Origin: Bacteroidota bacterium
GTDB taxonomy: Bacteria > Bacteroidota > Bacteroidia > 2-12-FULL-35-15
Length of the DNA stretch: 43,343 bases
NCBI GenBank assembly: GCA_947479085.1
Contig: CANJYB010000032.1
Coordinates: forward strand, 1-43,343
Reading direction: 5' to 3'
The position numbers and the translations under genes are program-made. Shown piece by piece: positions 477-36,785 of the stretch (its first letter is position 1; the number at the start of each line of letters is the position of its first letter). The notes beneath the pieces were generated by a model. The model ran no database searches. It had not been told where the DNA came from and worked only from the letters and a program-made list of their open reading frames with translations.

Positions 477-878
477 TTGTTCATTTTAAGGCAAAATAGC
501 CTGTTTCGGGAATCGGAGACCTCAGTCCGGGAATCGGAGACCTAAACCTGGGGAAATGCTCTCCGATTTCGGGAGTCGGAGACCTTAATCCGGGAAAATG
601 CTCTCCGATTTCGGGAGTCGGAGACCTAAACCTGGGGAAATGCACTCCGATTTCGGGAGTCGGAGACCTTAATCCGGGAAAATGCTCTCCGATTTCGGGA
701 GTCGGAGACCTTAGCCGGGGAAAATGCTCTCCGATTTCAGGAGTCGAAGAGCATAGTCGGGGAAAATGCTCTCCGATTTCGGGAAAATGCTCTCCGATTC
801 CCGAAATGAGAAATAAAATGCCTGAAAAGCAAGATGTGGAAACAAAAAAGAGGATTCCTCTATTCATTTGAGAAGCCT
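477..878. repeat. compound repeat element, copy 1 (42-bp units)
   Basis: The leader at 477-520 holds a small AGGC/GCCT hairpin and the left inverted repeat 504-519. The array has 42-bp units starting at 533, 575, 617, 659, 701 and 743, with half units near 512 and 785. Each 42-bp unit is two 21-bp halves, one with GTCGGAGACCT and one with GCTCTCCGATTTCGG, which can pair as GGAGA/TCTCC and CTCCGA/TCGGAG stems. The array closes with the right inverted repeat 791-806, a perfect 16-bp complement of the left one, then a degenerate trailer to about 878. Open frames across it exist because 42 divides by 3; I treat it as noncoding. Confidence 0.85.
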
Positions 879-881
879 TGG

Positions 882-1270
882 TTGTCAATTTTAAGGCAAA
901 AAAGCCTGTTTCGGGAATCGGAGACTATATTTGCGAAGTCGGAGACGACTTTCATCAAAAGTCCTCTCCCATTTGTGAAGTCGGAGACGACTTTCATCAA
1001 AAGTCCTCTCCCATTTGTGATGTCGGAGACGATTTTCATCAAAAGTCCTCTTCCATTTGTGGTGTCGGAGACGATTTTCATCAAAAGTCCTCTTCCATTT
1101 GTGAAGTCGGAGACGACTTTCATCAAAAGTCGTCTTCCATTTGTGAAGTCGGAGACGACTTTCATCAAAAGTCGTCTCCGATTCCCGAAATGAGAAACAA
1201 AATGCTTGTTAAGCTATAGATTGAAACAAAAAAAAGAGGCTTTCTCTTTTAATTTGAGAAGCCTCTTATT
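882..1270. repeat. compound repeat element, copy 2 (42-bp units)
   Basis: This copy has the same layout as the element 405 bp to its left, and the two leaders are nearly identical. The terminal inverted repeats are 909-925 and 1174-1190, a perfect 17 bp. Six units begin at 938, 980, 1022, 1064, 1106 and 1148, exactly 42 bp apart with no indel although bases differ. The last unit folds into a 12-bp perfect stem (1151-1162 with 1168-1179, loop CATCA); the others have the same arms with one to three mismatches. The unit sequence differs from copy 1 except for the shared TCGGAGAC core, so the frame of the element is kept while the unit has been replaced. Confidence 0.85.
1228..1265 (-). terminator. 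terminator after AraC-type gene
   Basis: GAGGCTTTCTC (1236-1246) pairs with GAGAAGCCTC (1256-1265) with one bulged base. On the minus strand the hairpin is followed by eight T. It lies 65 bp past the stop of the AraC-type gene. A degenerate copy at about 843-878 ends repeat copy 1, so the hairpin is also part of the repeat element trailer. Confidence 0.7.
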
Positions 1271-1330
1271 GAAATTACAGTGATTGAATCCCACACGTGC
1301 GGCATTAAAACTTAACCCGAAATAATACTC

Positions 1331-21184: not shown

Positions 21185-21251
21185 TTATCCCGCACGCAGG
21201 ATAATTATACGTTAATACTATCCCTTAATCATAACATTTTTCACCATGTTA
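21185..21251 (-). promoter_or_regulatory. rpsH mRNA leader with two hairpins
   Basis: Between the promoter and the rpsH ATG lies a leader of about 95 nt. It can form TTATCC/GGATAA (21185-21190 with 21199-21204) and TAACAT/ATGTTA (21232-21237 with 21246-21251). As S8 autoregulates spc mRNA in other bacteria, a control site is possible, but I see no convincing copy of the S8 rRNA target. Confidence 0.35.
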
Positions 21252-21317
21252 TTTTTTTAGGGACGGCAAAGGTAAAAAACTATTTAATATAAACAACATA
21301 CAGTTGAAAATATTTTT
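21252..21317 (-). promoter_or_regulatory. promoter of the rpsH-rplQ unit (copy of rplC promoter)
   Basis: The minus strand carries TACCTTTG (21267-21274) as -7 element, with TTGTT about 20 bp upstream in the -33 place and an A/T-rich AAAAATATTTTCAAC (21303-21317) further up. The 66-nt block aligns without gaps to 33371-33436 at 57 positions by eye, including CCGTCCCTAAAAAAA just after the -7 box. The match to the upstream region of rplC is much too long for chance. Confidence 0.85.
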
Positions 21318-25929: not shown

Positions 25930-26110
25930 AAGGAACCAAAAAATAAAAATAGGCTCTCAAAAACTAATTAAAGGTTCCTTAAATAGTTTTAAGGAACCTT
26001 AAATTAAACTAAGGAACCAAAAAGGTGAAAGAAGTAACCATAAATAAAAAAAAGGAACCAAAAAAGAGAAAGAAGTAACCATAAATAAAAATAAGTAACC
26101 AAAAAAAAAT
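25930..26110. repeat. 20/21-bp periodic array upstream of SBBP gene
   Basis: AAGGAACC or AAGTAACC and relatives begin near 25930, 25950, 25971, 25991, 26011, 26032, 26052, 26073 and 26093. Spacing alternates 20 and 21 bp, so the double unit of 41 bp (26011-26092) is repeated almost exactly. A perfect 11-bp hairpin is included: AAGGTTCCTTA (25971-25981) with TAAGGAACCTT (25990-26000). Runs of A recur in phase. The stretch 26110-26257 shows nothing I can name. The array lies 205 bp before the SBBP start codon. Confidence 0.8.
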
Positions 26111-26257
26111 TTATGGTCGTCAGTCCTATCGACTTTGAAACAGGGACAAAAGAAGAACATAGTGTTTAACCTTTAAAATCAATACTATATGGGAAAAGAA
26201 AGAAAAGAAAAATTAGTTAGAATCAGTTAATTAAATGATTAATAATCAGTTCTGCAA

Positions 26258-26283
26258 GATTGCTTTGTTGCTCGCAAAGACGT
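26258..26283. repeat. dispersed repeat word (TTGCGAG type)
   Basis: AGATTGCTTTGTTGCTCGCAAAGACG is a variant of the common noncoding word whose complement has the form GTC-TTGCGAG-NN-CGAAGCAATC. Recognition from memory of that widespread repeat; only one copy is in this window. Confidence 0.45.
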
Positions 26284-27650: not shown

Positions 27651-28019
27651 TTAAAGTACTTCCGGTGCCAAAGAAATTATTTTCATAAAGTTCTTATCTC
27701 TCAGTTCACGAGCCACAGGTCCGAAAATACGGGTTCCTCTTAACTCGTCAGTAGCATTTAATAATACCACTGCATTGTCGTCAAAACGAATGTATGAACC
27801 ATCAGCACGGCTGATTTCTTTTCTTGTTCTTACCACTACTGCTTTTGACACAGCACCTTTTTTAATATTTCCTGAAGGCAAAGCGTGTTTTACTGTAACC
27901 ACCACTTTATCGCCAATAGAAGCATATCTTTTTTTGGTTCCTCCAAGTACACGGATAACAAGTACTTCTTTTGCACCGCTGTTATCAGCTACTAATGATC
28001 TTGATTCTTGTTGTAACAT
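27651..28019 (-). CDS. rplN: 50S ribosomal protein L14
   Basis: L14 forms an intersubunit bridge and is where silencing factor RsfS binds. The 122 residues begin [19 protein letters not shown] and contain [20 protein letters not shown] and [20 protein letters not shown]. The 87-bp spacer to rpsQ carries an exact 16-bp tandem duplication (28071-28102). Confidence 0.98.
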
Positions 28020-28070
28020 CTTATTTTAATTTCTAATTAATTTCTAATTTCTAATGGAGTTCTACTGCAA

Positions 28071-28102
28071 TCTGCACATTGGTAAATCTGCACATTGGTA
28101 AA
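28071..28102. repeat. 16-bp tandem duplication in rpsQ-rplN spacer
   Basis: TCTGCACATTGGTAAA occurs twice head to tail. A related 16-bp tandem pair is in the rplP-rpsC spacer at 29147-29178. Confidence 0.85.
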
Positions 28103-28106
28103 TCAT

Positions 28107-28672: not shown

Positions 28673-29101
28673 TTAATTGTTGTCAGCAGCGTAGTCTCTT
28701 CTAACGATAAACTTGGTAGTTACCGGTAATTTAGCAGCAGCCAAACGCAACGCTTCTTTTGCAATTTCCATTGGCACACCTTCCGCTTCAAACATAATAC
28801 GACCTGGTTTTACCACCGCAACCCAATACTCCGGGCTACCTTTACCTTTACCCATACGAACCTCTGCAGGCTTTTTGGTAATCGGTTTATCAGGGAAAAC
28901 ACGAATCCATATCTGACCTTCACGTTTCATGAAACGGGTCACTGCAACCCTTGCAGCTTCTATCTGACGTGCTGTTACCCAGCATCCTTCAGTAGCTTTT
29001 AGTCCAAATGAACCGAATGAAAGTTGATCTCCACGCTTTGCGTTTCCTTTCATCTTCATTTTGTGCATCTTTCTAAACTTGGTTCTTTTCGGCTGTAACA
29101 T
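28673..29101 (-). CDS. rplP: 50S ribosomal protein L16
   Basis: L16 helps to shape the A site and is needed for late assembly of the large subunit. The 142 residues begin [20 protein letters not shown] and include [20 protein letters not shown] and the 81-loop region around [19 protein letters not shown]. It lies 84 bp after rpsC. Confidence 0.98.
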
Positions 29102-29146
29102 TGTATTTAATTTCTAATTATTATAATTTCTAATTTCTTCTTTTCA

Positions 29147-29178
29147 ATTGGTACATCTGCACATTAGTACATCTGCAC
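29147..29178. repeat. 16-bp tandem duplication in rplP-rpsC spacer
   Basis: ATTGGTACATCTGCAC and ATTAGTACATCTGCAC lie head to tail, one mismatch. They share the TCTGCACATT-GTA word with 28071-28102 in another spacer of the same operon. Confidence 0.8.
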
Positions 29179-33332: not shown

Positions 33333-33370
33333 TATTACTTAATTTATTTAATATAAAATTACCCTGTTTC

Positions 33371-33436
33371 TTTTTTTAGGGACGGCAAAAGTATAAAATT
33401 TATTTATATAAACAACAAATGGTTGAAAATATTTTT
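33371..33436 (-). promoter_or_regulatory. promoter of the rplC-rpsN unit
   Basis: On the minus strand: TTTG (33416-33419), then TACTTTTG (33386-33393), a full -33/-7 pair with 22 bp between (TTGTTG overlapping gives 19), then CCGTCCCTAAAAAAA in the first transcribed bases. AAAAATATTTTCAAC upstream could be an UP-like element. The same 66-nt block recurs before rpsH (21252-21317). Confidence 0.88.
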
Positions 33437-36328: not shown

Positions 36329-36359
36329 CTTCCCATTTTAAAACTATACCAATGTAAAG

Positions 36360-36654
36360 TTGTGTTATTGCAATGCTGAGTTTAGTTTTTGCAATGTAGA
36401 GTATTGTTTTCCCTATGTAAAGTTTAGTTATAGCTTTGTGGAGTATAGTTATCGCTCTGTGGAATATAGTTATTGCAATGTGAAGTATAGTTATCGCTTT
36501 GTTGAGTATAGTTATTGCAATGTGAAGTATAGTTATCGCAATGTGGGGTATAGTTATCCCTTTGTGAAGTATAGTTATCGCTTTGTTGAGTATAGTTATT
36601 GCAATGTGAAGTATAGTTATCGCAATGTGGAGTATAGTTATTACAATGTTGTCA
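36360..36654. repeat. 21-bp tandem array upstream of LRR gene
   Basis: Fourteen units of exactly 21 bp. The core TATAGTTA begins at 36423, 36444, 36465, 36486, 36507, 36528, 36549, 36570, 36591, 36612 and 36633, with three weaker units at 36360, 36381 and 36402. Units alternate loosely between endings TGCAATGTGAAG and CGCTTTGTTGAG, which gives a 42-bp higher order. Units vary in bases but there is no indel. Both strands are open in one frame because 21 divides by 3, giving heptad-like peptides; no start signal supports them. The array lies 160 bp before the LRR gene start. The stretch 36655-36785 shows nothing I can name. Confidence 0.9.
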
Positions 36655-36785
36655 TACACCCTTCGAATGTCACATAAATTAGTACAATTCAATAATATAA
36701 ATCATAAAATATCGCTCAAAAACCTTCGCTTAGCCTTCCTAAGTGTGCCAAAATGACATAAACCAACCCAATCTCAATACAAATA

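Follow-up and report, generated by a model that had tools for sequence, protein, structure and literature searches.

Twin noncoding repeat elements in a Bacteroidota genome belong to a dispersed class of intergenic arrays with a two-turn register

Two adjacent noncoding elements near the start of a 43,343-nt stretch of Bacteroidota DNA (the window, contig C32 of the 4.28-Mb genome G000) belong to a dispersed class of arrays that keep a two-turn register, 21 and 42 bases corresponding to two and four turns of the DNA helix. This assignment is well supported and we make it with high confidence. More tentatively, and with a likelihood that we judge to fall somewhat short of even, we propose that the twins are tandem copies of one dispersed family of noncoding satellite cassettes (family D), each consisting of a leader, an array of 21-nt half units and a trailer, in which the units would turn over locally while being held to two helical turns; both the machinery and the function are presumed.

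Element 1 occupies positions 417-878 and element 2 positions 882-1264, in tandem. The leader, the terminal inverted repeats and the trailer are common to both, while the 42-nt units differ. The parts of the pair are as follows:

417-503, + strand: leader of element 1 (core 477-503), common to the copy on contig C40 (from 817) and to contig C203 of genome G005
504-797, + strand: array of element 1, built of 14 21-nt units that form 42-nt hairpin pairs
504-519 and 791-806: terminal inverted repeat of element 1, 16 bp, perfect, read from the sequence
798-878, + strand: trailer of element 1, with a terminator-like hairpin that is partly decayed according to the alignment of family copies
882-908, + strand: leader core of element 2, 98% identical over 44 nt to G005 C203
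909-1190, + strand: array of element 2, built of hairpin units of 42 nt
909-925 and 1174-1190: terminal inverted repeat of element 2, 17 bp, perfect
1191-1264, + strand: trailer of element 2, with a terminator-like stem at about 1234-1264
1265-1326, + strand: flank copied along with element 2, matching C40 up to 1322

The direct and inverted repeats and their coordinates agree with a preliminary description of this region, which reported adjacent twins with a common frame and differing units. Two of its details need adjustment. The leader that it began at 477 is indeed shared, but its true left edge lies at about 417 and is common to C40; the hairpin trailer that it gave to both elements is complete in element 2 and, by alignment, decayed in element 1. 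The leaders are 82% identical (477-541 against 882-946) and the trailers 81% (784-852 against 1168-1236). A trailer covariance model (R1) scores the trailers at 114.4 bits for element 1 and 134.5 bits for element 2, in both cases by construction, the element 1 sequence being in the model alignment. In both elements the 42-nt unit joins a sense and an antisense half unit of 21 nt, and each element holds 6.1 copies of 42 nt. Measured from the start of the core through the trailer motif common to all, element 1 spans 310 nt, element 2 and the C40 copy 289 nt each and G005 C203 246 nt, so that the core-to-core lengths of these four family-D elements differ by 21 and 43 nt, and those of the twins by exactly 21. 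The next gene after element 2 (1331-2233, opposite strand) encodes an AraC/GyrI-like regulator. A perfect 26-nt palindrome around CCGCACGTGCGG lies just after the C40 element (L013, 1281-1306), and similar motifs occur in the window at 362-384 and 1284-1306. Further along, at 2338-2419 on the - strand, the window contains a near miss to the Flavo-1 RNA (40.6 bits against a gathering score of 42, E-value: 1.5e-6); a full Flavo-1 match is present elsewhere in G000 (L258, 743-819).

Family D extends beyond the twins. The third copy, at positions 877-1322 of C40, also in G000, is 93% identical over 447 nt to element 2 (window 882-1326). With element 2 as the query, four of 59 genomes gave a match (G000 itself, G005, G012 and G015), all of one genus. 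Because the G012 match comprises only the terminator-like stem, the relatives that carry an element are those of G005 (contigs C203, C107 and C224) and G015. The C203 element has a leader and trailer like those of the twins and quite different units. The genes that precede the C40 and the G015 elements are homologous to each other (73% identity over 639 nt); both elements lie past the 3' end of their gene and point in the same direction relative to it, and here too the units differ. The preliminary description had named the lack of a second locus in any genome as evidence against it; instead, copies exist at C40 and relatives in G005 and G015. Genome G005 additionally has a two-turn array with a different unit behind serS. 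No syntenic empty site was found for the cassettes, orthologous synteny being lost behind serS and before the POT transporter gene.

The exact 17-base core occurs 0 times in viral contigs, and phage and plasmid records contain no match to the elements, which leaves the phage link suggested in the preliminary description without support. A 14-base pattern gave at least 120 matches in public genome contigs; among those listed, a strong array surrounds only one (L069), while two further loci barely pass a 50% threshold and look unrelated. Following a search of 295 genomes of the class with the trailer covariance model, in which 12 candidates per genome were scored, nine had a match at E ≤ 0.01; the known carrier G005 is absent from the matches shown, probably because it was not sampled. 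The eight matching genomes other than G000 reach at most 39.9 bits, and their loci have no array above the detector threshold.

The pattern of fixed ends and exchanged units recurs in a second family, E (L256, L375 and a tandem pair at L367), in which the trailer and an outer stem are constant and the inner part is exchanged. Some interspersed elements also adjoin arrays. Among the 25 interspersed families listed, family 0 stands beside arrays, on one side only, at six of its eight loci (L246, L251, L258, L260, L261, L373, L377 and L382) and family 6 at three of three, while 17 families have no array near any copy. Family 0 is approximately 200 nt long with a hairpin CCGAATCCGG..CCGGATTTGG, followed at those six loci by a two-turn array; five of its eight loci were scanned against Rfam, with no match at gathering score. 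The window itself has additional noncoding repeats in two copies (28000-28104 with 29078-29173, and 21225-21317 with 33348-33436).

The wider class came to light when further 21-nt arrays with unrelated units were seen at loci fetched for another reason. It was surveyed in 20-kb stretches of G000 (42 stretches chosen by the analyst, 863 kb, 20% of the genome) using a detector that calls self-matches of 62% or more across 63 nt for periods of 9-64, with arrays counted as intergenic if an ORF of 150 aa or longer covers under half of their length. Of 62 intergenic arrays, 45 have a period of 20-22 or 41-43 nt: 24 at 21 nt, 13 at 42, four at 22, two at 41, and one each at 20 and 43 (two overlapping pairs are included, so that these are 43 separate stretches). 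The other 17 comprise eight at 14 nt and nine at other periods. Arrays inside ORFs numbered 14 (among them one at 21 nt and two each at 42 and 63), and sequence simulated for 22 of the 42 stretches with a first-order Markov model contained 0 arrays. Scaled up, the 45 arrays correspond to an estimated 220 two-turn arrays per genome (approximately 52/Mb), and roughly one noncoding array occurs per 19 kb of the stretches read. TRF analysis of the 45 gave a median copy number of 8.9, a median match of 75% and a median indel rate of 0%; 23 have no indel at all and the other 22 have up to 8%, while the eight arrays of other periods that TRF scored have a median of 2.5%. When 69 arrays were compared, 27 of the 45 from G000 matched no other (46 of 69 overall), and the 45 form 34 groups. 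The preliminary description was right to call the twins noncoding and unlike CRISPR, found no support for its phage link, and was silent on the genome-wide class with its 21-nt register.

Two more members of the class lie in the window, one of them with a flank that is shared elsewhere:

25960-26120, no strand assigned: array of period 20/41 nt, indels 8%
26121-26258, + strand: flank common to a 41-nt array at L259 (G000, contig C7), 84% over 162 nt among the matches listed (family 16)
36334-36677, no strand assigned: array of about 14 copies of the 21-nt unit GTTATCGCAATGTGGAGTATA, unrelated in sequence to the twins

The last of these lies between divergent genes and shows no fold-back beyond its column permutations. 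Relative to array-free gaps of at least 200 nt (94 tandem, 22 divergent and 18 convergent), the gaps that hold arrays are less often flanked by co-directional genes (16 tandem, 15 divergent and 7 convergent; p = 0.003). The 20 proteins scanned in the flanks have no family in common; nine lack a Pfam match and three have Por_Secre_tail.

Within the genus, two-turn arrays were found in six of 14 sampled genomes, at densities per 100 kb of 5.2 (G000), 6.2 (G027, counting one 63-nt array as two-turn), 5.0 (G005), 3.7 (G015), 3.3 (G004) and 1.2 (G032). The stretches of G002, G006, G008, G009, G010, G011, G024 and G033 contained none (440 kb in total, with 20-80 kb from each genome). Arrays are also present at single loci of G014 and G034. 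Of 20 genomes from the other families of the class (336 kb, two of the twenty stretches, G037 and G046, being masked as N), three have one array each. In a sample of such other families, the commonest intergenic period is 14 nt (5 of 11 arrays; L283, L299 and L067 were noted). Among 119 stretches of other public genomes (895 kb), one of seven intergenic arrays is two-turn, of period 41/42 nt (L067, 6981-7269), and comes from a Capnocytophaga record, also Bacteroidota; four 21-nt arrays in these stretches lie inside ORFs.

Among known repeats, the arrays described here come closest to the prokaryotic satellite, defined in the available text of Subirana and Messeguer (2019, PMC6749651) as at least four repeats of a 10-200 nt unit with internal regularity, and going by that text they are a variant of it. 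Both twins have at least four tandem units within this size range. The satellites of that text are likewise noncoding tandem repeats, often with unique units, in short scattered arrays that are abundant in few species; the text describes neither a two-turn period class nor an exchange of units between fixed ends. It gives 23 satellites/Mb for the densest bacterial replicon (Table 1) and up to 89/Mb for Methanosarcina under a stricter search, figures to which the density in G000 is not directly comparable because our detector tolerates divergence. REP/BIME elements resemble the arrays in being intergenic palindromes clustered in varying orientation, but, in the available text on them (PMC3733652), REP share a tagged palindrome within a genome, whereas here the units are often private and the period fixed. 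The preliminary description held the elements to be unlike REP/BIME; the arrays of G000 do not share one palindrome family across the genome, 27 of the 45 being private. Nor are the elements a CRISPR array, since the units are contiguous without unique spacers. Plasmid iterons have periods near 20-22 bp and the sopC centromere repeat is 43 bp; such arrays are similar in having direct repeats in whole helical turns, dyads and about ten copies, and differ from the many loci seen here, which have no common unit. None of the 29 proteins scanned gave a match to a Rep or Par family. Type III toxin-antitoxin systems consist of a repeat RNA, a terminator and a toxin gene; no same-strand toxin gene lies immediately downstream of the twins, where the regulator gene is on the other strand. 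Beggiatoaceae also have many intergenic repeat sets in one lineage but, in the available text (PMC4679880), with the single heptamer TAACTGA throughout, and the available text on intergenic tandem repeats of Planctomycetota states no period (PMC9426551). No published description of a two-turn array class was found in the open-access literature.

The arrays fold well. Compared with dinucleotide shuffles, element 1 has a z-score of -8.37 and element 2 of -7.87, with none of 100 shuffles as good. When unit columns were permuted, which keeps the tandem repeat and destroys the dyads (20 permutations per array), the real array gave the best fold in 26 of 45 cases (about two expected; 25 on the opposite strand), among them 12 of the 13 arrays of period 42; the other 19 did not beat every permutation. 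An RNA function for the arrays is possible, and the elements may also be a protein-binding array. The specific reading of family D as a structured noncoding RNA gene, with a leader, a + strand chain of hairpins and a trailer terminator, we consider unlikely. It has in its favour, besides stable folding, a terminator-like trailer stem that is intact by eye in four of five aligned copies, a ratio of single G-T to A-C oppositions of 6 to 1 on the leader-to-trailer strand of six family-D elements, nine one-sided wobble cells (four G-U, five U-G; + strand only) in the element-2 type units, and better folding of the leader-to-trailer strand in element 1 (-160.5 versus -128.0) and in the G015 element (-64.8 versus -48.4). 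However, element 2 folds equally on both strands (-133.8 and -134.6), the C40 copy folds slightly better on the opposite strand, the terminator is decayed in element 1, and the opposition ratio is only 26 to 19 over 27 arrays (24 of the 45 with z below -3.5 and better than 20 of 20 permutations, plus three from other genomes). In the 13 element-2 type units, pairing holds in 87% of cells and fails in 22, but none of 13 pairs is altered on both sides; the compensatory stem changes that the preliminary description looked to did not appear, despite the nine wobble cells. Promoter and terminator scans were at chance (1 versus 0.8 and 2 versus 1.5), the former covering sigma-70 types only and the latter having a loop limit that seems to omit the element 2 stem. 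No Rfam family reached its gathering score anywhere in the window, and the weak matches over the elements are far below theirs; this also argues against an RNA gene and is in keeping with the earlier view that the twins belong to no nameable RNA family.

Other readings are less probable still, with one exception. That the arrays are peptide-coding repeats of seven or fourteen residues is hardly credible: long open frames do cross several arrays, and 37 arrays have 35 open frames against 23.5 after within-column shuffling, but no one frame of the six stays open across the four family-D elements that were compared and eight of the 45 periods (20, 22, 41 or 43 nt) are not multiples of 3, from which we conclude that the arrays are not coding; 3-periodicity of column variability was also seen in only two of 33 arrays at p < 0.05. 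Phased A-tract curvature predicts a 10.5-nt A/T harmonic, which reached p < 0.05 in two of 29 arrays against 1.5 expected, and simple phased bending is therefore not supported. As for a generating enzyme, G000 has no reverse transcriptase match, and counts of the Y1 transposase (PF01797), considered as a RAYT, do not track arrays: G000 has five matches and G002 also five, yet G002 has 0 arrays in 80 kb. This failure to separate array-bearing from array-free species also weighs against the twins being non-autonomous MITE- or REP-like elements moved by a transposase. Perfect terminal inverted repeats of 16 and 17 bp, dispersed copies with both ends and one copy directly behind another would suit such an element, but the inverted repeats sit inside the leader and trailer, and we regard it as very improbable. 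The exception is that the arrays are functionless minisatellites, made and homogenised between genes by a replication or repair process that favours duplications of about 21 nt. We think this unlikely on balance, with an appreciable chance of being correct. The often private units, the patchy occurrence between species, the absence of a single family among the flanking proteins and the scarcity of arrays between co-directional genes are all consistent with it; so is the apparent dispensability of arrays in the genus, as judged from the eight of 14 sampled species in which 20-80 kb each contained none. Constraint is suggested, however, by divergence of about 25% with a median of 0% indels, by dyads beyond the tandem-repeat null, and by leaders and trailers that are conserved across species.

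We favour the satellite-cassette explanation because conserved ends enclose different units at separate loci with length differences of 21 and 43 nt, because 45 of 62 periods are two- or four-turn with fewer indels than other arrays, because dyads exceed the permutations in 26 of 45, because family E repeats the pattern and interspersed elements stand on one side of arrays, and because array density differs sharply among sampled species of one genus. Under this explanation, a cassette, ends included, would be copied into another intergenic position, by a route that is presumed although copies at several loci are observed. Copy number might then change, and the units be homogenised, through slippage or unequal crossing-over by multiples of 21 nt; the outcome, seen in both families, is that the inner sequence is replaced and the ends persist. 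Finally, substitutions would be tolerated and indels purged, as expected if a putative DNA-level reader needs sites, often dyads, on one face of the helix. No such reader of the arrays was found, and the private sequences make a single sequence-specific protein unlikely. The G-U/A-C polarity hints at RNA rather than DNA reading, and the 19 arrays that fail the permutation test and the 22 with some indels count against the explanation as a whole. The register could be kept by a DNA reader, an RNA product or the duplication mechanism, of which we prefer the DNA reader with modest confidence.

Bacterial intergenic space is usually regarded as compact. Here a register of approximately 21 bp is kept as array sequence drifts; some species of a genus show this, and the stretches sampled from its other species contain no such array. 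This raises the question of whether a mechanism makes exact two-turn duplications or selection spares only those, and whichever proves right would, to our knowledge, be a novelty among bacterial minisatellites. The contrast between species offers a route to the responsible gene. Speculatively, and as a proposal that we ourselves hold to be doubtful, this Bacteroidota clade may have an unrecognised system for making or using noncoding arrays, hundreds in number and measured in double helical turns, in which unit sequence is free and spacing strict, leader and trailer mark the cassette, units are swapped as a block, and congeneric species have or lack the system.
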